From positions 1 to 29,052 of IMG/VR virus record IMGVR_UViG_3300035698_011799: a stretch of 29,052 nt of DNA. The stretch is one strand, 5' to 3'. Below the pieces are notes generated by a model, which worked only from the letters and a program-made list of their open reading frames with translations, had not been told where the DNA came from and did not search any database. This stretch comes from a virus. A program made the translations under genes and the position numbers. Every line of letters begins with the position of its first letter. The stretch's first letter is position 1. Shown here piece after piece: positions 4,402 through 29,052 of the stretch.

Positions 4402-5322
4402 ATGAAATGTTTAGTTACAGGAGCAGCAGGCTTCATAGGCTCACATCTTTGCGAGGAGTTAATCGTTAAAGGATATGATGTAATAGGAATAGACAACCTT
4501 TCTGCGGGTAAGATGAAAAATATACAGCATTTAGATTTAAGGTATTTTAAATTTATAAAATGCGATATATTAGATACTCCGTTATTAGAATGGATTTTTA
4601 AGAATTACAACCCTGAAATAGTTTTTAACCAAATGGCTTCTAAAAAGACTGTTTGTTTAGCCGATCCTAAAAAAGACTGTGATGTAAATGCCAAAGGAAC
4701 ATTAAACCTACTTCAATTATCTAAAAAATATAATGTTAAGAAATTTATACATGCCTCTACTGGTAGCGTATATGGTGAACATAAGGTTGCTTTATGTGAG
4801 AGCACTTACCGCACCCCTTGTTCTTACTATGGTATTTCTAAGTTAGCTGGTGAAAATTATGTCAACCTCTATGCCAAACATCATGGATTAAATGCTACCA
4901 TACTACGATACTTTCACGTCTATGGAGAAAGACAAGATTGCTCTAATGTAGGCGGGGTTGTTGCTATTTTTATCAATAATATGCTTAATGGGATACCAAT
5001 GACTATTTTTGGTGATGGTGAACAAAAGAGGTTATTTACATACGTTAAAGATGTAGTTTTCGCTAATATTGCTGCAATAGATTATGATTGTGGTATATTT
5101 AATGTGGCTAATAACAAAGCTATTACCCTACATGAGTTAGTTCGAGAGATTCAGACTATTATTAATGATGATTCAGGTAAAAATAGAGTTGAATATACAT
5201 ATTGGCAAGAAGGTGATATTATTAACTTTAAAATTGATAATTCTTTAGTTAAAAAAGAACTTGGGATTAAATTTACTGATTTTAAAGTTGGGTTAAGAAA
5301 AACTATTGATAATTGGAAATAA
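4402..5322 (+). CDS. NAD-dependent nucleotide-sugar epimerase/dehydratase (extended SDR)
   Basis: The 306-residue protein is a complete extended short-chain dehydrogenase. It has the NAD-binding TGAAGFIGSH (6-15, the GxxGxxG loop), an acidic end of strand 2 (GIDNLS, 29-34), the NAG-like VNAKGT (95-100), the Ser region ASTGSVYGE (118-126), the catalytic pair Y143xxxK147 (YYGISK), and RYFHVYGERQ with the substrate region after it. This family includes UDP-glucose 4-epimerase and sugar-nucleotide 4,6-dehydratases; the exact sugar cannot be told. It probably supplies a modified nucleotide sugar to the glycosyltransferases in this window. It has its own promoter at 4349 and is followed by 41-bp repeats. 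Confidence 0.9.
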   Translation: MKCLVTGAAGFIGSHLCEELIVKGYDVIGIDNLSAGKMKNIQHLDLRYFKFIKCDILDTPLLEWIFKNYNPEIVFNQMASKKTVCLADPKKDCDVNAKGTLNLLQLSKKYNVKKFIHASTGSVYGEHKVALCESTYRTPCSYYGISKLAGENYVNLYAKHHGLNATILRYFHVYGERQDCSNVGGVVAIFINNMLNGIPMTIFGDGEQKRLFTYVKDVVFANIAAIDYDCGIFNVANNKAITLHELVREIQTIINDDSGKNRVEYTYWQEGDIINFKIDNSLVKKELGIKFTDFKVGLRKTIDNWK

Positions 5323-11238: not shown

Positions 11239-11492
11239 TGTCGAAGAAAGAAGCAATAAAATCAGCCATATTACTTGGAAAAGAAATTGGTGATATTTTT
11301 GGTGACATACATATTGTAAAGTTTAAATACGGATGGGATTGTGTTACCGATGAATATTTTAAAAAATATAAAAAGAGAAAAATTTATCATACAATTAAAA
11401 CAGAGCCGCCTAAAGATGTAGAGCTTACAAAAGAGGATACTGATAAATTAGCTGTTATTTTAAAGGCGTGGGAAAAAAAGCGTAAGAAATGA
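11238..11492 (+). CDS. Small basic hypothetical protein
   Basis: The 84-residue protein overlaps the preceding stop by one base (TAATG) and the next gene by 4. It has a Lys-rich sequence with FKYGWDCVTDEYFKKYKKRK near the middle and a charged C-terminus. There is no known motif. Tight coupling to the MuF-like gene suggests it is part of the head operon. Confidence 0.65.
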   Translation: MSKKEAIKSAILLGKEIGDIFGDIHIVKFKYGWDCVTDEYFKKYKKRKIYHTIKTEPPKDVELTKEDTDKLAVILKAWEKKRKK

Positions 11493-12115
11493 AAGCATCT
11501 TTTAGCATAATTATGCCTTCATATTTAGGTGATTACCCCACTGCTGCAACCAACAGAGAGGAAAAACTCGAAAGAGCCATTAAATCTGTTATTAGTCAAT
11601 CTTATAAAAAATGGGAATTGATTATTGTATCCGATGGTTGTAATAAAACCATAGAGGTTGCTAAAAAGTTTACAGGTGATAAAAGAGTGAGGCTTTTTAA
11701 GATTAAAAAGCAAAAGATGTGGGGTGGGCGTGTTAGAAACACTGGTATATCTAAAGCTGTAAATGATTGGATTATTTACCTCGATTCTGATGATAGTTAT
11801 AATAAGGATTATCTAAAAAACTTAAACGATGAGATAGACAACACTTTTGATTGGTTTTGGTTGGATGAATATTCTTGGGATAAAGGTAAAAAAGTATTTA
11901 ATGTGCGTACCGCTAATGTAAAAAGAAAAGGGCAGTGTGGCACTTCAAATATTCTTCATAAAAAGAGTTTAGGTTTATATTGGTATGTTGAAACAAAATA
12001 TGCCTTAGATGATTTTATGTTTATTAATTTATTGAAATTAACAAGTAAAAAATATAAAAAATTAAAAACCGTTGGGTATGAGGTTTGCCATGTGCCTAAT
12101 TTATTAGATCATTAG
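11489..12115 (+). CDS. Family 2-type glycosyltransferase
   Basis: The 208-residue protein has a GT-A fold: FSIIMPSYLG (5-14), LERAIKSVISQSYKKWELII (27-46), VSDG (47-50), RNTGISKA (83-90) and the metal-binding IYLDSDD (96-102, DSD as the DxD motif). ALDDFMF (172-178) may supply the catalytic base. Only the catalytic domain is present, with no membrane segment, so it should act in the cytoplasm. It overlaps the upstream gene by 4 bases and begins a cluster of three glycosyltransferases inside the head gene block. Donor and acceptor cannot be told. Confidence 0.88.
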   Translation: MKASFSIIMPSYLGDYPTAATNREEKLERAIKSVISQSYKKWELIIVSDGCNKTIEVAKKFTGDKRVRLFKIKKQKMWGGRVRNTGISKAVNDWIIYLDSDDSYNKDYLKNLNDEIDNTFDWFWLDEYSWDKGKKVFNVRTANVKRKGQCGTSNILHKKSLGLYWYVETKYALDDFMFINLLKLTSKKYKKLKTVGYEVCHVPNLLDH

Positions 12116-12183
12116 TAATTAACTACAAGTTTTGAATGTAATCGTAAACTAAAAACAAAAAACGAAAAAAAATAAGATATAAT

Positions 12184-12306
12184 ATGAAAGCAACCTATAT
12201 ATGTGTAAAATGTGGGAATATATTTACTCACTCAGGGTGTAAATGTGGCGCAAGGTGCAAAAAATGTGGTTCAAAAAAAATAAAATTACATGATACAAAG
12301 GCGTAG
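12184..12306 (+). CDS. 40-residue zinc-ribbon mini-protein
   Basis: The frame from ATG 12184 encodes 40 residues with six cysteines: C7/C10 (CVKC), C19/C21 (CKC) and C25/C28 (CKKC), a dense zinc-binding pattern. It overlaps the start of the next glycosyltransferase by 17 bases. The leader is A-rich, like those of established genes here. It was too short for a standard length cut-off. It might bind nucleic acid or a partner; the function is unknown. Confidence 0.6.
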   Translation: MKATYICVKCGNIFTHSGCKCGARCKKCGSKKIKLHDTKA

Positions 12307-12868
12307 AGTTGTTTTATCTATTCTTCTCTGCGGAACTACACGCAGATTAATAGAGGGAAGAAGTTTTAAAATAATCAAAAAATTAGAATCACAAATAGGT
12401 AAAAGACCTGTTGAATTGATTTATATAATAGATAATAAAAAAAGACTTGTAGGAACTAAGAGAAATAATCTTTTAGATATGGCACAGGGTAAATATGTGG
12501 CATTTGTTGATGATGATGATGATATATCAGACGATTATGTAAAAAGCCTATTAGGTGCAGTTCAGGTAAATGCTGATGTAATTGTATTTGATGTAAATGT
12601 TTCTATTGAGGGCGGTAAATATAAAAAAGTTGTTTATGATGCTGGCTTCAAAAAGGATTTAAATTTAGCTAATAGTTTTCAGAGACTTCCTAATCATATT
12701 ATGTGTGTCAAAAGAGATATTGCTAAAAAGGTAAGATTTCCAGATGTACAAATGGGTGAGGATACTGCATATGCTGTAAAGTTAAAGAGTTTTATTAAAC
12801 GTCAAGCAAGAATTAGTAAGGTTTTATATTATTATAATTTTTCACACTCAATAAGCGAAACTCAATGA
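12290..12868 (+). CDS. Family 2-type glycosyltransferase (small)
   Basis: The 192-residue protein has the GT-A features VVLSILLCGTTRR (7-19), ELIYIIDN (42-49), GTKRNNLLDMAQGKYVAFVD (55-74) and a run of five Asp at 74-78 that includes the DxD metal site. MGEDTAYAVK (155-164) resembles the ED motif that carries the catalytic base in GT2 enzymes. The N-terminus RRR is basic. It ends with a 4-base ATGA overlap with the next glycosyltransferase, indicating coupled translation. Confidence 0.85.
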   Translation: MIQRRRVVLSILLCGTTRRLIEGRSFKIIKKLESQIGKRPVELIYIIDNKKRLVGTKRNNLLDMAQGKYVAFVDDDDDISDDYVKSLLGAVQVNADVIVFDVNVSIEGGKYKKVVYDAGFKKDLNLANSFQRLPNHIMCVKRDIAKKVRFPDVQMGEDTAYAVKLKSFIKRQARISKVLYYYNFSHSISETQ

Positions 12869-13572
12869 CGTTTGATATAATATTAGTAAGTAATGCTAAA
12901 GGAAGAGGAAAACTTTTTACAGAAAATGCTATAAAATCTATTTTATTAAGTAAAAATCAAATAAACTTTAATATTATTGTAGTTGAGCAAATCAAGGGAA
13001 TAACTTACAAAAATGCTACAACCATTAATTATGATTTTAAATTTAATTATAATAAATGTTTAAATTTAGGTATTTCTAAAACCAAAAATAAATATATAGT
13101 TTTATGTAATAATGATTTACAGTTTCACCCATTATGGGCTGAAAATTTATATAGAGGATTTAAGGCAGGGTTTATATCTTTATCACCTTATTGTAAAAGA
13201 ACATTAGGTAAAAAAGATATTGGAAATCATATATTACAGGGTTATCAGATAGCAAGACATGTAGCTGGATGGTGCATCGCAATAGATAGAGGTATATTTA
13301 AAAAAATAGGAAAAATTAATGACGATGTAGAGTTTTGGTATTCTGATAATATTTATGCAGATCAGCTTATAAAAGCTAAAATAAAACATGGTTTAATTTG
13401 TAACTCGTTTGTTACACATACCAACGGTGGTAGCAATACTTTAAATGTTCAACCGAAAGAAAAAAACTTAGATTTAACAGGAAATCAATTAAAAAAATAC
13501 AATAAAGCAAAAAGAAAAGTAAATTATGCCAAGAAAAAAACCATTTATTCTGACGATGGAGGAGATTTATAG
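12865..13572 (+). CDS. Family 2-like glycosyltransferase
   Basis: The 235-residue protein has a GT-A layout: FDIILVSN start, NINFN-like strand with IIVVEQ (37-42), FNYNKCLNLGISKTKNKYIV (60-79) and the metal site CNNDLQFHP (81-89, NND replacing DxD). GWCIAIDRGIFKKIG (135-149), FWYSDNIYADQL and FVTHTNGGS resemble the acceptor half of rhamnosyltransferase-like GT2 proteins. The Lys-rich tail overlaps the next gene by 47 bases. It is the third member of the cluster and likely acts on the same glycan. Confidence 0.8.
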   Translation: MTFDIILVSNAKGRGKLFTENAIKSILLSKNQINFNIIVVEQIKGITYKNATTINYDFKFNYNKCLNLGISKTKNKYIVLCNNDLQFHPLWAENLYRGFKAGFISLSPYCKRTLGKKDIGNHILQGYQIARHVAGWCIAIDRGIFKKIGKINDDVEFWYSDNIYADQLIKAKIKHGLICNSFVTHTNGGSNTLNVQPKEKNLDLTGNQLKKYNKAKRKVNYAKKKTIYSDDGGDL

Positions 13573-15493: not shown

Positions 15494-16513
15494 ATGAGTA
15501 CAACCGCAGGTTACTTTGATGAAACCATTTTGACGGACATTCGGGTGAAAGCCGATGAGATAATGTTCGATGATAGAATTAAACAACAGTTTGTACCAGA
15601 TGTAGATATTTTTAAAGCTATTTCTGCTGTACAAACTGCAACAGTATATCCAAGCAAGGCACGTAACAAAATAGTTGGTGTTGATGTAATGTGGCAAAAT
15701 GTTTGTGGACAGTCCGCAGAAACTAATGTTACATGTGAAATTGGTGGAGCTAAATCCTCTACTAATATTAAGGATTATGACTTATCATTTGAAAGAATGG
15801 TTAAGTTTACTGAAGATGAAGCTGACTTTATTGATAACGAATTTGATATTGAAACAGCAATAGCTAAAGATTTACTAAATGCTGATAAAACAATGGCAGA
15901 AGCATTTGCTGTTTATTGTGTTGGTAGAATTAATACTTTTAAAGGTGTTAATACTTTAGGAACTAATGGAAAAGGTGTTGTTGACGGAACTGACACATAC
16001 ATCCTTCCAGCATATTGGGATGCTACTTTAGCAGCCTATTTAAAACGAGTAGAAAAATCAAATAAAATTACAGCTCCCGCTTATGCGAGTGGTCAGAATT
16101 TATTTGAACAAATGTTTGTTGCAGAAGCAAAAAGAAGCAACGCAGATGGTAAAGGTGATGCTATTCTTTATAACGGAATGAGATTTTACTTTGATCTTGT
16201 AAACATTGATGCTGTTAATAGCACCGATTTAGTTACATATATGTTATCTTCAGGTTCTTTAGCCTTAGCTAGTAGAAATCTTAATCCCGATGTACCAGAA
16301 GTAGTTAATGGAGTTTTTACTCGTTATACTATGAATAGTAAGTTTATACCAAACATGAAATACGATGTATTTTATGATAATGACTGTACAACTAATGATT
16401 TGATTCAACATAATTTTAAAATCAAATTAGTAGCTGATTTATTTAATAACCCAACTGGATGTGACGACCATAATACAGGAGTTCTTTCATTCATTTGTGG
16501 CGCACCAGCGTAA
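15494..16513 (+). CDS. Major capsid protein
   Basis: The 339-residue protein sits after the scaffold and before a strong terminator, the usual place of the major capsid gene. The sequence is balanced in composition, with long regular alpha/beta stretches: a helical N-terminal arm (YFDETILTDIRVKADEIMFD), an E-loop-like part with VTCEIGGAKSS, a helix FDIETAIAKDLLNADKTMAE typical of the spine, and a beta-rich C-terminus ending in cysteines. This fits an HK97-type capsid subunit, though no diagnostic motif was read. It has a separate leader with an inverted repeat. Confidence rests on position, size and composition. Confidence 0.8.
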   Translation: MSTTAGYFDETILTDIRVKADEIMFDDRIKQQFVPDVDIFKAISAVQTATVYPSKARNKIVGVDVMWQNVCGQSAETNVTCEIGGAKSSTNIKDYDLSFERMVKFTEDEADFIDNEFDIETAIAKDLLNADKTMAEAFAVYCVGRINTFKGVNTLGTNGKGVVDGTDTYILPAYWDATLAAYLKRVEKSNKITAPAYASGQNLFEQMFVAEAKRSNADGKGDAILYNGMRFYFDLVNIDAVNSTDLVTYMLSSGSLALASRNLNPDVPEVVNGVFTRYTMNSKFIPNMKYDVFYDNDCTTNDLIQHNFKIKLVADLFNNPTGCDDHNTGVLSFICGAPA

Positions 16514-22700: not shown

Positions 22701-23349
22701 TGTAAATGTAAGGAAAAAAGAGTTAGAAGATGCTAAAAAAGCAAGGGATCAATCATTAAAAGATAGAGAAAAAGCACTTAAAAGGCAAGAATATATTGAG
22801 AGTGTATCTCAGTCTATAAATTTAGCAAGTACAGCATCTATTCTTTTAAAAGATTATGTTGGCAAAATTCCTGTTGTTGGATTAGTATTAGGTATAATTG
22901 CAATAGCAACACTATTACAAGCATTTAAGGGCTTTAAATCAGATGCTTCTGCTTTAACAAAATATGAAAAAGGTGGACGGGAAGTATTACAAGGTAATAG
23001 CCATCAAAATGGTGGAATATCTTTAGGTGGCAATAGAGAAGCACAAGGCGGTGAGATGGTATCAATATTTAATAGAAGTGCTACCAAAAAGCACCAACCC
23101 CTAATAGCTGATTTAACTAATGCTATAAATAAAGATAAATTAGATGTGTTTTTAAATCAAGGTGCATTTGAAAAGGTTAATGATTCTAATATTAATGTAA
23201 GCCAAAGCGTAAACCTTGATGATAGCAAGCAGATAAATAAAATGAATGTTTTATTATCTAAAAACCTAAAACAAAGAAATATTAGATTTGAAGGAAATAA
23301 AAGAATTGAAAAATTTGGTAGTAGAACACGAATTATAATAACAAATTAA
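19756..23349 (+). CDS. Tail tape measure protein
   Basis: The 1197-residue protein begins with a coiled-coil region (about 1-130), then the tape-measure core at about 145-445 (FRQLRGVMLSTFGAYAVIGG; FELAMAKVRAITGATSKEID; later LLGKLADQQIYGSLAGTGLR), then long charged coiled coils (about 600-960). A hydrophobic segment lies at about 1036-1057 (GKIPVVGLVLGIIAIATLLQ). The C-terminal GGREVLQGNSHQNGGISLGG and EAQGGEMVSIFNRSA is a small domain often seen at the end of such proteins. Length sets the tail length, at about 1.5 angstrom per residue of helix, so a tail of roughly 150-180 nm if all is stretched. Its ATG follows the gpT stop by one base. Confidence 0.93.
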   Translation: MPQVELTAMVDQLVNLKQQLQSLNTVAGNFKKQLQDVGNQGYKQLTTESQLLNNKLRKELSILQQLIILRQKAKKGYNTAEDIRQLKAIEKKVKEINKERIAVKKLDTELKKNASVNKQVASTNNRVAASQNRVTKSTQKSNMIFRQLRGVMLSTFGAYAVIGGIKNTINIIKDFELAMAKVRAITGATSKEIDILSRSAISLSSGSIFDAKTIATLQVQLAKLGFSVQEIANSTEGVLKLATAAGEELAPAAALLASTLRGFNLEAIETERVANIMGKAFTTSALDLARFKESIKYIAPIAYNLGITVDETASLLGKLADQQIYGSLAGTGLRNIMIAMSDTSGKLAARVGFAVRNFDDLVKALRILSTEGVTLSDVLQLVDKRASSAFLGLLENVDALEEYQKELKNSSGDIDEMANIQLETLSGKLDIATNKWKSFVLEIDKGDGVISKSLKFVADSFGDFFLRAGGNFKEFYLFEDLKEGFDLQSENKSLEETLRLLEQLGSSKMSKNIVGGEEFTTLIDYKPFLDWQKKIYSEIYNEMYKVGGLLDEIKDTEEEYFKGGLSLEDARKKSIKEYLDLHKGLLVEYELEQEGINKNTTLIDTAGVKRKAQLKFQIKSEELRVKNAEKALNVWSKSEISINEVQEKIDQLTEAQRALSIVAEEKGLPTLTKEGQKAYDIIQKDIDKYQEFLKLLKKDTGVDKKIKEAYDLLKKEVKSNKKLLKAKYELAEAELELIKDTKEKETKLSELGLKYKNDVLLQEVRLVKGNATEIEAIGVEKEKNYQEHLNNLLEINGNSIDAVIEVEKLKNDKLKSEGKKVFAEKKAQWEKDGDTEVEIRRKTAIEKAKLDQEMLEAEVAVAQMELMLRSNGTNATAEEIEQLKLKVDNLIIQLEAAGVKVKMLEGKPPELAGWDKLVDDLKNNAEKFAPVMGSIVDAYGSIADAAVDKSERIVDALNTQVSEQQNALEIEMRLSAQGLANNVNVRKKELEDAKKARDQSLKDREKALKRQEYIESVSQSINLASTASILLKDYVGKIPVVGLVLGIIAIATLLQAFKGFKSDASALTKYEKGGREVLQGNSHQNGGISLGGNREAQGGEMVSIFNRSATKKHQPLIADLTNAINKDKLDVFLNQGAFEKVNDSNINVSQSVNLDDSKQINKMNVLLSKNLKQRNIRFEGNKRIEKFGSRTRIIITN

Positions 23350-25217
23350 TGAATTTCGATTATTACATATATAGATTAACTGATACAACATCCGATCCGT
23401 ATGACGTTGATAGTTATACGCAAATAGTTAGACAGGTTTATCCTATTAATGCGGACACACAAAAAAAGACTTGGACTAAAGATGATAAAAGTTTTTTCTT
23501 TAGAGAGGGATTGTCAGGAAATTTAGTATTTAAAAACACTCCCTCGCATAATGATTTTACATTCTTTAATGATTTACAAAGCGATGATGTGTGGAAGTAT
23601 TACAGGCATTTGTTCGTGATTCAAGACAGAAGTGATAGTAGTATATACATGCGGGTATTTTTCTCTATAACAGACGGAGAATATGATTTAGATACATGTA
23701 GTGTTTCCTTTAAAACACAACCTTTAGATAAATATTCTTGCATTAAAGAAAAAGAGGATGTAATTGTAAATGTTTTAGACCAAACTCCTAGAGTTACAGT
23801 TACAGCAAAATTACCTGAAAATTTAGGTTATGATGTGGTTCTTCAGGAAAGACATCATAAAGGTGGGTATTATAGAGGTATATATTATGAAAAAAGAGAA
23901 GATTTATTAGAAGCTATACCACAGGCTTATGATTATCCATCGAGTAAATGGTGTACATCAAGTGGTTCTCTAATTGAAATAATAGTTGATGGGGAATCTG
24001 TTTGGTGTTATATAATGGTACAGGCTAGAGCTAGCTTTGATTGTGAGGGTGGTGCAATACCTACGGTTGTTGATTATACAGCATTGCAAGGTAGTTGTAA
24101 TGTAGATGGAACTATATTAATGTATAAAAATTGTAATGCTTATGAACGTCTTATAGAAGTTACTGAATGTTTAGAAAATATTCCCCAAAAACCAACTATT
24201 GATGGGAATTGGAGATTGATATATTTTGACTGTAATTTTAATATAGCTTTATGGGTAGAAATGACTTATACAGAATTAACAATATCTAATGGCAGAACCT
24301 TAAAAGCTGTAATTGAAAAATTAGTAGAAGATTGTGGTTTTGAGTTTAAAAGTACATTTTTATATTTTGAAGGTGATAATAAAATTACAGGTGAAACTAA
24401 TAAACTTAATAATTTAATTGTTTTTCAAAAGTCTGATGTAAAAAGACCTAATGCAAGTAATGATGCAAGAATTTTAGATATATCATTTGGTGAGTTTATG
24501 GATGAATTTTCTATATTATTTAACGGTGGTTATTTTATTGACGATGATAATTATTTAAGATGGGAACATATTCATTTCTTTGAAAACGGAGGTGGTTATG
24601 GTGTAGTTAATAATTCTGATACTGATTTAACTGAAAGTGGTTCTTATGCTAAGTTTATTAAATCAAAAAGTAAATACTCTTATGATAAGTTTGATTTACC
24701 TGAAAAAGAACGTTGGGAAATATTAGATGGTGAATTAGAAGATTTTAAACCAAATGAAATAACTTATGATTTCGGATGTGTTGATAAAGGAAATATTTTA
24801 GAAAGAAACACGGCACAACTCGCAACAGATATATTTACTATTTATTTTAAAAGTGAATATGTTTCCGATCAAGGGATGGTTTTATTACAATGTAATTCTG
24901 ATAATGAATTAGAAAATGAGATAGGGGTTTTATCTAATGACCTTATAGCTAATGGTCATTTATCAATTGCTAATCTTTTAAATAATTATTGGAAATATAA
25001 TAGACCTTTTAATACAGGTACAATGAATAAAATTTTAACAACTTTTGAATCTACTAAAAAAATAAAAAAACAAACCACATTAAGCTATCAATTATGTTCT
25101 AATGATTTTGACCCAGATAAGTTAAAAACAACAGAGCTTGGAGATGGTGAAGTACAAGATGCTGAACAGGCTCTTAATACAGGAGTGGTTGATGTTAATT
25201 TAATGTATGAATTATAA
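23349..25217 (+). CDS. Tail tip/distal tail-like protein
   Basis: The 622-residue protein follows the tape measure with a 1-base overlap, the usual place for the distal tail or hub protein. It is beta-rich and aromatic, with acid-rich surface loops (FFNDLQSDDVWKYYRHLFVI; FSITDGEYDLDTCSVSFK) and a mid-protein HHKGGYYRGIYY segment. About 15 cysteines occur, some near Asn/Cys-rich loops (SCNVDGTILMYKNCNAYERL). No enzymatic motif is seen. It ends with TTELGDGEVQD (594-604), which has a counterpart in the next protein. It probably forms the baseplate or hub under the tail tube. Confidence 0.7.
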   Translation: MNFDYYIYRLTDTTSDPYDVDSYTQIVRQVYPINADTQKKTWTKDDKSFFFREGLSGNLVFKNTPSHNDFTFFNDLQSDDVWKYYRHLFVIQDRSDSSIYMRVFFSITDGEYDLDTCSVSFKTQPLDKYSCIKEKEDVIVNVLDQTPRVTVTAKLPENLGYDVVLQERHHKGGYYRGIYYEKREDLLEAIPQAYDYPSSKWCTSSGSLIEIIVDGESVWCYIMVQARASFDCEGGAIPTVVDYTALQGSCNVDGTILMYKNCNAYERLIEVTECLENIPQKPTIDGNWRLIYFDCNFNIALWVEMTYTELTISNGRTLKAVIEKLVEDCGFEFKSTFLYFEGDNKITGETNKLNNLIVFQKSDVKRPNASNDARILDISFGEFMDEFSILFNGGYFIDDDNYLRWEHIHFFENGGGYGVVNNSDTDLTESGSYAKFIKSKSKYSYDKFDLPEKERWEILDGELEDFKPNEITYDFGCVDKGNILERNTAQLATDIFTIYFKSEYVSDQGMVLLQCNSDNELENEIGVLSNDLIANGHLSIANLLNNYWKYNRPFNTGTMNKILTTFESTKKIKKQTTLSYQLCSNDFDPDKLKTTELGDGEVQDAEQALNTGVVDVNLMYEL

Positions 25218-25756
25218 TGGAAAATAGAATAGAATATAAACAACCCTTACCTTTTCCTTTCTATGATAGCTTGGAAAAACAGAATAGATATAAAACGCAA
25301 TGTGCTGAATATACGCATAGTGAGTATTTAATTATGGTAGGGTGTTACATATTACCATTTCAGATAAGAAGGGTTCATAGTACAATGGAAATTATAGATA
25401 TTGAAATGACATTGGTAAATGTAACGGAAAAAACTGAAGAAGATATAACGGGTTTTTTAACTACTGCTGATTTTGATTTAACTACAGCTGAGTTGGGTGA
25501 TGGTAGAGGACAAGATAGAGACTTTATTAGCTATTATGGTAGAAACGAAGTAATAGATACAAAAGAGCTTGATTGTGTTTTTAATGAAGATTGTATATAT
25601 TATTTAAAGCTATTTGATGGTGAGGATTATTATTACTCAGAATTATTTAGATATTTTGCAACAGATGATTATGTTACAAATATAATTAAATGGAACGCTG
25701 CGGATTATTTAAAACATAATGGAGGGGTTACAGATTTATTAATAAGTAAAAAATAA
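25217..25756 (+). CDS. Small tail-tip protein, unknown
   Basis: The 179-residue protein overlaps the previous gene by one base. It is acidic and beta-rich, with MVGCYILPFQIRRV and EDCIYYLKLFDGEDYYYSEL. Residues 89-100 (TTAELGDGRGQD) repeat a peptide at the end of the upstream protein, suggesting that the two are related or touch the same partner. Likely part of the tail tip; function unknown. Confidence 0.65.
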   Translation: MENRIEYKQPLPFPFYDSLEKQNRYKTQCAEYTHSEYLIMVGCYILPFQIRRVHSTMEIIDIEMTLVNVTEKTEEDITGFLTTADFDLTTAELGDGRGQDRDFISYYGRNEVIDTKELDCVFNEDCIYYLKLFDGEDYYYSELFRYFATDDYVTNIIKWNAADYLKHNGGVTDLLISKK

Positions 25757-25762
25757 GATATT

Positions 25763-26455
25763 ATGGCAAATAAAGAGATACATGAATTAACAGCTGCGGC
25801 AGTAAGTTTACCTGTAGCGGCTGTTATTGCAGGTGTGGTTGGAGTGGCAGAAGCAAAAAAATACACAGGAGCAGAAATAACAGCCCTAGAAGCAATAGCA
25901 CGAGCGGCGCAAGATGATGCTATTATTTTAGGAGTAGGATTAAACGCAGATGGAACTTATGCTATACCCCCTGGTACAACTTATTTAGGTGCTTCTACTA
26001 GCACATTAGATGCTTTAGATAAATTAGATACAGCAATAGGTACTTTTGTAGTCTCTGGTATTTATAAAAAAGAAGGATTTTTAAGTAATGCTGAAGTACA
26101 AAATTTAGGCACTTTTCAGGAAATGATTGCAGCACCAGGTGTTGGTAAGGTTATAGATGTAATTGATTGTGTATTATATATTCAAGTTACTACACAATTA
26201 GATGTAGGATCTCAATTATTATATTTAGAATTTGAGGGAGGTGATGCTACTCTAAGAATACATAATGCAGATGTAGAAACCGCAGCATCCTCATGGTTTA
26301 AAATGAATGGGTATCTTACAACAGCAATGGATGAAAATACTGCTGTAGGGTTTAGGTTATCAGCGGATGCTAACCCAATTGCGGGTAATGCAATAATAAG
26401 ATTTAAGGCATTATATAGAATAGCTGATAGAGATACAATGATTTCACCTATATAA
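25763..26455 (+). CDS. Tail fibre/appendage-like protein
   Basis: The 230-residue protein begins MANKEIHELTAAAV, an N-terminus frequent in short tail fibre proteins of Bacteroidetes phages, followed by a hydrophobic Ala/Val stretch and KYTGAEITALEAI. The middle has repeats of Asp/Thr/Leu (TSTLDALDKLDTAIG) and the end is beta-rich (YLEFEGGDATLRIHNADVET). A trimeric fibre with a globular tip is a plausible shape. No enzyme motif is seen. It follows the tail-tip gene with a 6-base gap. Confidence 0.6.
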   Translation: MANKEIHELTAAAVSLPVAAVIAGVVGVAEAKKYTGAEITALEAIARAAQDDAIILGVGLNADGTYAIPPGTTYLGASTSTLDALDKLDTAIGTFVVSGIYKKEGFLSNAEVQNLGTFQEMIAAPGVGKVIDVIDCVLYIQVTTQLDVGSQLLYLEFEGGDATLRIHNADVETAASSWFKMNGYLTTAMDENTAVGFRLSADANPIAGNAIIRFKALYRIADRDTMISPI

Positions 26456-26456
26456 A

Positions 26457-26894
26457 ATGGAATATTTAAAAATAGAATATAGTAACACATACGATTTTGG
26501 AGACAGAATTTTATATCAAACAGACTTTGGAAACATAGTTTATTTAGATGTAAATGTAAAATCTCCAACATATCCTATTGAAGAAGAAGCTGTAGAAAAT
26601 GGAGATAAAGATATTTCTCTAACTTTTCAGAAGTGGCAAAAAAGATATAGTTTTTCAACTTTAGTATTTGAGTTTATGGCTGATGCTTTAACCCTTTTGC
26701 CGTTACACGATTATATTTGGATTACATTTCCAAACGGAGAATCCAATAGAGTTACAGATGTAGAAGTTGAAGTAGATTTTCAAGATTTAGGAAATACAGA
26801 TGAAACTAATGCCTGTATGTGTCGTGTAAATGTTAGCTTTGCGGTTGATTCTATTATAACTACAGGTTGTAATAATAATATGGAAATAGCGTAA
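26457..26894 (+). CDS. Tail-associated structural protein, unknown
   Basis: The 145-residue protein starts one base after the previous stop. It is beta-rich, with ISLTFQKWQKRYSFSTLVFE, WITFPNGESNRVTDVEVEVD, and a Cys-containing C-terminus (NACMCRVNVSFAVD). It resembles neck or tail-tip accessory proteins only in a general way. It is the last gene before the intergenic promoter at 26909. Confidence 0.55.
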   Translation: MEYLKIEYSNTYDFGDRILYQTDFGNIVYLDVNVKSPTYPIEEEAVENGDKDISLTFQKWQKRYSFSTLVFEFMADALTLLPLHDYIWITFPNGESNRVTDVEVEVDFQDLGNTDETNACMCRVNVSFAVDSIITTGCNNNMEIA

Positions 26895-26899
26895 AGTAT

Positions 26900-26943
26900 T
26901 TTTTTATTGTAATTTTTTCAGGGTCAATAATGTTGTACATTTA
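26900..26943 (+). promoter_or_regulatory. Type B promoter of the late tail gene
   Basis: GTAATTTTTT begins at 26909, after a T-tract, and TACATTTA is at 26936-26943 after GTTG, in the same register as the promoters at 15-51 and 16573-16607. The ATG follows 49 bases after the -7 box. The rest of the 98-base gap is AT-rich without a gene. Confidence 0.65.
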
Positions 26944-26992
26944 TACCCTAACAAGTAAATAATAATAATTTTATTAATTAAATTTTAAAAAA

Positions 26993-27550
26993 ATGTCAAT
27001 TACAAATCAAATTACATGTCCTTCAAGTTGCGGAAGTTTTCTTCCCGTTGTGACATCTGATTATTGTGATCCACAAATTGAGTTCGGTGAAATTTCTAAG
27101 GTTTTTGTCATGGGATATGATGGAAGTGATCTTGCAAATTGGGAACTTTTATCTGATTGGACTTCAAGATTAGATCAAACCGATGTTGCAGACATAGACA
27201 AAATCAGAACATTAACTGTTTCAGGGGATCAACCTCTTCCTGAAAAAGAGATTTTAGAAATTTCTGATAACAGAAAAGTATCAACACCATCATCATTTAC
27301 ATTAAATATAGATATTGATGATGTTACAGATGAAATTTACGAATTTTTCAGAACAATGGAATGTAATACTAGGGTGAAAATATGGTACACCGCTGGTAAT
27401 TTCATTTTTGGTGGAAATGAAGGAATTATAGCTGATATAGACCTCAGTTACATGATCGAAAGAGGACAGAAAGTTCCTCAAAAAATAACAGGAACAATTA
27501 AATGGGATGCAGCACATAGCCCAGCTAGAGGTGCTAATCCATTTGTATAA
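26993..27550 (+). CDS. Candidate major tail tube protein (or abundant tail protein)
   Basis: The 185-residue protein has its own promoter and a size, acidity and beta content that fit a tail tube subunit: LTVSGDQPLPEKEILEISDN, TPSSFTLNIDIDDVTDEIYE and IADIDLSYMIERGQKVPQKI followed by a final strand (TGTIKWDAAH). N-terminal CPSSCG and CD may be a metal or disulfide site. Tail tube genes normally lie between the terminator and the chaperone; none is seen there, so this displaced gene is the best candidate. It could instead be another abundant virion protein. No family motif was recognised with certainty. Confidence 0.5.
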   Translation: MSITNQITCPSSCGSFLPVVTSDYCDPQIEFGEISKVFVMGYDGSDLANWELLSDWTSRLDQTDVADIDKIRTLTVSGDQPLPEKEILEISDNRKVSTPSSFTLNIDIDDVTDEIYEFFRTMECNTRVKIWYTAGNFIFGGNEGIIADIDLSYMIERGQKVPQKITGTIKWDAAHSPARGANPFV

Positions 27551-27563
27551 TAGGAGGTAAATC

Positions 27564-27938
27564 ATGGCAGATAATTTTTTAAGTTGTACAAATAATTCTA
27601 TTAGTTTTTTAACGTTACTCCAATCACTGTTTACACAGGATACTAATGGAGATAACTATATTAGAATAATAAAGGCAACAGCAGCCGATCCTTCTGTTGG
27701 TTCTCCTATTACTTGTAATAATAACGATGACTTCGTTCAATTGTTTAATAAATCTATTGCTTTAGCACCAGATGGTTTACCCGCAATAAGAATGATTTCA
27801 GGTGATTTTATAGAAGGCACAGGGTTATCAGCAAGTAAAGAATGTGGAATGGAATCTTCATTAGATTTATTAAGCAGACTAATGTTTATATTAGATGAAG
27901 ATGGTAATGTTGCTGTAAACCTTGCAAATATAGTATAA
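27564..27938 (+). CDS. Cys-repeat protein, three repeats
   Basis: The 124-residue protein consists of three copies of a degenerate 43-residue repeat beginning with Cys: C8, C51 and C94 are exactly 43 apart. Each copy has Cys-x-(N/M)-N/E, a helix with Leu/Phe, an Asp/Asn-Gly turn and a strand (YIRIIKA; AIRMIS; AVNLANI). The next two genes carry the same unit. A ribosome-binding-like AGGAGG lies 10-5 bases before the ATG, one of the few in the window. Function unknown; probably a virion appendage or collar part. Confidence 0.7.
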   Translation: MADNFLSCTNNSISFLTLLQSLFTQDTNGDNYIRIIKATAADPSVGSPITCNNNDDFVQLFNKSIALAPDGLPAIRMISGDFIEGTGLSASKECGMESSLDLLSRLMFILDEDGNVAVNLANIV

Positions 27939-27940
27939 CT

Positions 27941-28144
27941 ATGGATTGCGGGAATAAGAATCTATCAAACGAAGCATTATTTAAAGGTGCTATCGAAAGC
28001 GATGGTATTAACTTATTTTTAAATGTAGAAACAAGCGGGGAAACTTACATAAACTTAGATTGTAGTAATACGCTAAGTTGCTCCGCTTTTTTTCGTAGTT
28101 TATTTACGGATGATAACAGAATAAGAATTATAGAAGATAGTTAA
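27941..28144 (+). CDS. Cys-repeat protein, two repeats
   Basis: The 67-residue protein carries two copies of the unit seen in the previous gene: MDCGNKNLSNEALFKGAIES with DGINLFLNVE, and LDCSNTLSCSAFFRSLF with DDNRIRIIED. C3 and C41 are 38 apart, so the copies are a little shorter. It starts 2 bases after the preceding stop. It probably makes a complex with the neighbouring repeat proteins. Confidence 0.65.
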   Translation: MDCGNKNLSNEALFKGAIESDGINLFLNVETSGETYINLDCSNTLSCSAFFRSLFTDDNRIRIIEDS

Positions 28145-28145
28145 G

Positions 28146-28412
28146 ATGGCAATACATACAACATGTGAAAATAAAGCTGAAAGTCCTGAATCTTTATTTA
28201 AACAAATGATAAGAGTATTAACTGATGGCAGTTTAGTTTTAGCTGTTCAGGGTTCTGGTACGGTGGACAATGAACTTGAAATTATAGCTACAGGAAATAC
28301 AGGGTCAGGGCAAAATGGTAATTGGCGTTTATATATAGACGGTAGTTTAGATTTGTTAATACAAAAACGTAAAGGCGGTGTTTGGGTTACAACTGAAACT
28401 AATGGCTTTTAA
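28146..28412 (+). CDS. Cys-repeat protein with beta-rich end
   Basis: The 88-residue protein has one repeat unit (TTCENKAESPESLFKQMIRV, then LTDGSLVLAV), followed by a beta-rich tail: ELEIIATGNTGSG and NWRLYIDGSLDLLIQKRKGG. The tail differs from the repeats and might be a small fold for contact with the next product. It starts one base after the previous stop. Confidence 0.65.
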   Translation: MAIHTTCENKAESPESLFKQMIRVLTDGSLVLAVQGSGTVDNELEIIATGNTGSGQNGNWRLYIDGSLDLLIQKRKGGVWVTTETNGF

Positions 28413-28422
28413 AAACAATAAT

Positions 28423-29052
28423 ATGAGAAGAATAATTTTAATAATTCTTTTGAGTGTTTTTTATATAGGAGTATTTGCACAAGATAACCCTATGGTATTT
28501 AATGGGTTTACAAAATATATATTTTGTGATGATGTTATGCTTGATTCAGCATTAATAGATTCAGATGGTGATAAAGGAACTTTAGGACAATTATTTAGCA
28601 GCACGGCAAAGGGGACTAATTGGATTTATTCCAATTCAATAGTTCCTGACAGTATAAGATTTAAAGTAGATGCTTCAAATGGTTCACAAGTAATGTTTAT
28701 TGTTGGAAAAGACACAATAAAAGAAAGTTTTGGTATTGATTATATAAAATACTTTTTAAAAACAGGCGGCGATATTTCTGGGTTTGCTACCATATCGGAA
28801 TCAGGTTTAATTTTAAGTGGTTCGGATTCTTTAATTGATGCTGATGCTGTTTTTAAATATTTAGATACAACAAATGTTCTTTATTGGTCAGATACTTTGC
28901 TTTTTCTTGCAACTGATTATGATGTCGATACTTTGACAACTTCTGTTTATGATTCATTAGCGCACCATTTAGATACTTTGCAAGACCATAATGTTAGAAT
29001 ATCAGCAAATGTAGCAGACATTAATATATTATATGACACATTAAATAACTAT
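28423..29052 (+). CDS. Secreted-looking appendage protein, partial at window end
   Basis: ATG 28423 opens a frame that runs off the window after 210 codons. It begins with a clear Sec signal peptide: MRR, then a hydrophobic helix (IILIILLSVFYIG) and VFA before Gln 20, a likely signal peptidase I site. The rest is rich in D, S, T and hydrophobic residues: repeated LDT and DTL, then VRISANVADINILYDTLNNY, resembling a trimeric fibre or coiled stem. It follows the Cys-repeat genes by 10 bases. A phage gene product exported across the inner membrane is unusual. The C-terminal end is unknown. Confidence 0.75.
   Translation, partial: MRRIILIILLSVFYIGVFAQDNPMVFNGFTKYIFCDDVMLDSALIDSDGDKGTLGQLFSSTAKGTNWIYSNSIVPDSIRFKVDASNGSQVMFIVGKDTIKESFGIDYIKYFLKTGGDISGFATISESGLILSGSDSLIDADAVFKYLDTTNVLYWSDTLLFLATDYDVDTLTTSVYDSLAHHLDTLQDHNVRISANVADINILYDTLNNY

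Follow-up and report, generated by a model that had tools for sequence, protein, structure and literature searches.

A cysteine-led repeat spread over three adjacent small tail-region genes of an uncultivated Bacteroidota-type phage

The closest described systems are the Bacteroides phages B40-8 and B124-14, the Parabacteroides phage PDS1 and the Croceibacter phages P2559S and P2559Y, in which homologues of the flanking tail-tip proteins occur in the same order as at the locus described here. In phages with related tail modules, the tail-tip protein is followed by a large fibre gene, which either comes directly as the next gene or is fused into the same long gene, and none of the five phages has the three small genes or the repeat unit found at this locus. 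The window (the whole stretch of DNA analysed, a virus record of 29,052 bases) carries ORFs for a terminase, a portal-like protein, capsid, tape-measure and tail proteins on the plus strand. Its terminase matches those of cultured phages, and the window is a fragment of an uncultivated long-tailed phage of the Bacteroidota type. The ORFs at 23349-25217, 25217-25756 and 26457-26894 (622, 179 and 145 aa), all 5' of the three small genes, match tail or tail fibre proteins of Bacteroides, Parabacteroides and Croceibacter phages, with 23-33% identity to their counterparts in the cultured phages named above.

Between 25217 and 26894, the tail protein of approximately 290 aa found in related phages (phrog_35885) is represented by two of these ORFs, 25217-25756 and 26457-26894, and a foreign or unrelated 230-aa ORF (25763-26455) sits between the two halves. 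From this arrangement, an earlier splitting and interruption of genes in this stretch was deduced.

The three small genes, here designated P1, P2 and P3, lie between a tail-tip protein on their 5' side and a signal-peptide-bearing, fibre-like ORF on their 3' side. By location they belong to the tail-tip/fibre module, as they lie in the tail gene cluster and adjoin homologues of known tail proteins. The genes and their immediate neighbours are as follows.

26993..27550, plus strand: 185-aa tail-tip-region protein, upstream neighbour of P1, with a relative beside the tail proteins of contig L013 (phmmer E 1.5e-11 to the L013 ORF, 27% identity)
27564..27938, plus strand: P1, 124 aa, three units (U1 from C8, U2 from C51, U3 from C94), AGGAGGT 5' of the start
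27941..28144, plus strand: P2, 67 aa, two units (U4 from C3, U5 from C41), ATG two bases past the P1 stop codon
28146..28412, plus strand: P3, 88 aa, one unit (U6 from C7) and a C-terminal GNWRLYIDGSLDLLIQKRKGGVWV stretch
28423..29052, plus strand: downstream ORF, cut by the window end, with a signal-peptide-like N-terminus (MRRIILIILLSVFYIGVFAQ) of Bacteroidota type, probably fibre-like

L013 (IMG/VR contig 3300020043_006108) was the only record found to have a relative of the 185-aa protein. On the 3' side of that relative it has genes of the lysis type, among them a small membrane-protein ORF, and it has no repeat units. A profile of the 185-aa protein gave no match in 395 genomes. For the downstream ORF, no relatives were found in phages. 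A comparable ORF, with a signal peptide and fibre-like sequence and likewise downstream of tail genes, is present at 12315 in another phage contig, L086.

P1, P2 and P3 are genes, as is evident from their codon usage and tight packing. Their in-frame codon usage was like that of other phage genes, at 0.38, 0.15 and 0.40 bits per codon, respectively, while the other two plus frames over the same region gave about -0.9 to -1.4 bits per codon; third-position GC was 0.16-0.25. The gaps from stop to start are 2 bases for P1/P2 and 1 base for P2/P3, which suggests coupled translation. The ribosome site ahead of P1 (27547-27566) is strong, and the other tail-region ORFs inspected were without one.

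The sequence-only reading had described six cysteine-led units over three back-to-back ORFs, with cysteines at residues 8, 51 and 94 of P1, 3 and 41 of P2, and 7 of P3. All of these were found exactly as described, and one further cysteine, C47 of P2, was absent from that description. The units are diverged copies of roughly 30 residues.

27585..27680, plus strand: U1 (CTNNSISFLTLLQSLFTQDTNGDNYIRIIKAT), leave-one-out score 21.3 bits, reached by 0/500 shuffles
27714..27806, plus strand: U2 (CNNNDDFVQLFNKSIALAPDGLPAIRMISGD), 0.7 bits, 68/500 shuffles; pairwise p 0.016 with U1 and 0.018 with U6
27843..27935, plus strand: U3 (CGMESSLDLLSRLMFILDEDGNVAVNLANIV), the weakest member, 1.8 bits, 49/500 shuffles
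27947..28036, plus strand: U4 (CGNKNLSNEALFKGAIESDGINLFLNVETS), 12.0 bits, 0/500 shuffles; p about 0.002 with U6
28061..28141, plus strand: U5 (CSNTLSCSAFFRSLFTDDNRIRIIEDS), 8.6 bits, 1/500 shuffles; p about 0.002 with U1, 48% identity
28164..28256, plus strand: U6 (CENKAESPESLFKQMIRVLTDGSLVLAVQGS), 8.1 bits, 2/500 shuffles; p about 0.002 with U4

Helical and solenoid repeat proteins in general likewise consist of short degenerate tandem units, which here are 38-43 residues apart within a gene. Unlike those proteins, this array is split over three genes and matches no Pfam, NCBIfam, PHROG or PDB family.

As a set, the six units are similar far beyond chance in sequence, but the similarity is uneven. 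The 15 pairwise local alignment scores summed to 553, compared with 375±21 (maximum 470) for within-unit shuffles and 350±22 (maximum 442) when fragments were drawn from six different proteins of this phage, in which case 0/1000 sets reached 553. All six unit cysteines were aligned by MAFFT unaided. The best pairs were U1-U5, U4-U5 and U4-U6, each with the cysteines in register and with p about 0.002, which is the floor of the 500 shuffles used. The expectation in the sequence-only reading that a profile would recover all six units held for U1, U4, U5 and U6, each recovered by the other five, but failed for U2 and U3 taken singly, even though U2 had significant pair matches. A relaxed regular expression for the unit motif matched 4/6 units, and among the roughly 4000 remaining plus-strand ORFs of related loci it matched none, although it was composed after the units had been seen and so does not constitute an independent test.

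Relatives of the unit were sought in several collections. Neither P1, P2 nor P3 had a significant profile match in Pfam, NCBIfam or PHROGs (curated cut-off or significant E-value). Against PDB sequences, the best E-values were 0.37-0.39 (P2 and P3), with none for P1 and none below 2.8 for the unit profile. The earlier statement that no family name was known thus agrees with every family library searched. IMG/VR yielded no unit relative with three query designs, and neither did 50,697 phage records, in which a tblastn search with the consensus unit returned unrelated proteins only. Scans of viral contigs with single proteins (P1, P3, and the 185-aa and 622-aa neighbours) gave only a near-identical truncated relative (L002), and alignment-based scans with unit pairs gave none. 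Degenerate DNA motif scans gave two chance matches and then none. Of 395 Bacteroidota genomes, chance alone would be expected to give about 40 with a unit-profile match at E up to 0.1; 27 had one, and none of the matches inspected was noteworthy as repeated or cysteine led. No unit relative turned up among 80 tail-module relatives, nor when the full records of 49 of them were scanned; one match in a tape-measure-like protein was without the cysteine and was rejected. Literature searches brought up nothing relevant. Because a unit this short and degenerate is hard to detect with the search methods used, these results do not prove the absence of relatives. With no match in these collections, the unit would be an orphan repeat, a real but modest finding from one uncultivated phage, with a putative function.

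When the six units were folded as a six-row alignment, the prediction (mean pLDDT 73) was a helix at 8-15 followed by a short hairpin at 16-18/24-26, the alignment itself imposing a single fold on all units. This unit model gave no significant match among viral structures. P1 folded alone gave no usable model (pLDDT 34); its low-confidence secondary structure comprised helices at 15-21, 54-63 and 97-105 and strands at 34-37 and 73-77, so that each cysteine is followed by a helix, and each of the first two Gly turns by a strand. The helix, turn and strand proposed earlier for each unit therefore fit both the unit model and the secondary structure of P1, with the reservations that the fold of the former is imposed and that the confidence of the latter is low.

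The interpretation given in the sequence-only reading was supported in part; the modular surface that it envisaged is conjectural, and differing unit numbers in other phages are a prediction. Its history of duplication followed by splitting is best considered in two parts. Common origin was supported by the leave-one-out profile, pairwise and whole-set tests, and by these comparisons of sequence at least four to five units were shown to share it. The DNA-level repeats are only 12-15 nt long, and the duplications were therefore concluded to be old. U2 is backed by its pair matches with U1 and U6, and U3 is a doubtful member. It is possible, if somewhat unlikely, that only U1, U4, U5 and U6 are homologous, with U2 a likely addition, U3 a chance look-alike and the exact spacing of 43 residues a coincidence. 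The leave-one-out scores of U2 and U3, which lie inside the shuffle range, and the pairwise p of 0.58 between the two are consistent with this, but the subset of U2, U3, U4 and U6 exceeded all 500 shuffles (much of that being carried by U4-U6), and the subset U1-U2-U3 gave p 0.03. The splitting, for its part, is compatible with the spacing and the junctions: successive unit cysteine codons are 129, 129, 104, 114 and 103 nt apart, the units run on over both gene junctions, and both junctions (P1/P2 and P2/P3) lie between units. Splitting is one of two possible histories, as serial duplication of small genes predicts the same spacing and junctions. It is improbable that P1-P3 were once one six-unit gene, broken when two frame changes offset each other, or that they remain a single gene whose broken look is due to assembly or sequencing indels. 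The spacings across the junctions, 104 and 103 nt (34 codons with 2 nt and 1 nt left over, respectively), do sum to whole codons, P1 and P3 share one frame with P2 in another, and the P1 and P2 frames are both open across 27908-27938. Each ORF, however, begins independently at a unit boundary and shows normal codon usage by itself, and no break is seen in the contig's other long ORFs, which makes indel errors unlikely. The P1/P2 overlap also contains no slippery heptamer, so a programmed frameshift, as in tail-assembly chaperones, is unlikely.

As to function, the likeliest reading, which we suggest tentatively, is that P1-P3 serve as accessory proteins of the tail tip or fibre base and assemble through like units. 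This is favoured by units that are significant as a set and run on over both gene junctions, normal codon usage and tight packing, the predicted helix and hairpin, the tail-module ORFs upstream, whose counterparts in cultured phages are followed by or fused to a large fibre, and the position ahead of a fibre-like ORF. Against it, no relative was found, leaving no virion proteomics or structure for comparison, U2 and U3 were not recovered, P1 alone gave no usable model, and a signal peptide, as on the downstream ORF, would not be expected on a part put together in the cytoplasm. That signal peptide would fit a non-virion role, in which P1-P3 would be accessory proteins of the "moron" type or chaperone-like assembly proteins that merely occupy a variable slot before the fibre gene, perhaps acting with the secreted 28423 product, for example by altering the host surface. 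Small size, orphan status, the variable slot and the strong ribosome site of P1 itself are also in keeping with such a role, which is nevertheless considered somewhat unlikely, since the tail genes are on the same strand and tightly packed with P1-P3, and the comparable signal-peptide ORF of L086 has fibre-like sequence, favouring a fibre link.

For the tail-tip/fibre-base assignment, the following scheme is envisaged. One module of approximately 30 residues (a Cys-x-Asn cap, a helix and a β-hairpin with an Asp-Gly turn) would have been duplicated repeatedly to give P1, P2 and P3, which are probably translated serially off one message, given a strong ribosome site only before P1 and the minimal gaps. 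The modules would most likely pack together within and between the three proteins, and we infer a small hetero-oligomeric collar or adaptor in the virion, linking the conserved tail-tip proteins (ORFs 23349-27550) to the fibre-like ORF from 28423. If true, this would offer a clean example, on a small scale, of a tandem repeat with gene boundaries between units and one array delivered as three proteins, and a simple natural system for the change from homo-repeat to hetero-oligomer in phage tails; the weight of the finding is limited because it comes from a single uncultivated phage without relatives. A bolder and very improbable extension is an alternating A-B-A-B-A-B array (A, U1, U3 and U5; B, U2, U4 and U6) over three co-translated genes, with A and B pairing between proteins as a self-complementing split-repeat tail set. 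Of ten possible partitions, this alternation came second, all but level with the top-ranked one, and is suggestive only.

Elsewhere in the window, the candidate major capsid ORF (15494-16513) had no tblastn match at E 1e-3 among the 50,697 cultured phage records. By eye, three consecutive glycosyltransferase-like ORFs were noted between the portal region and the capsid genes (11489-13572), as was a nucleotide-sugar-epimerase-like ORF at 4402-5322.
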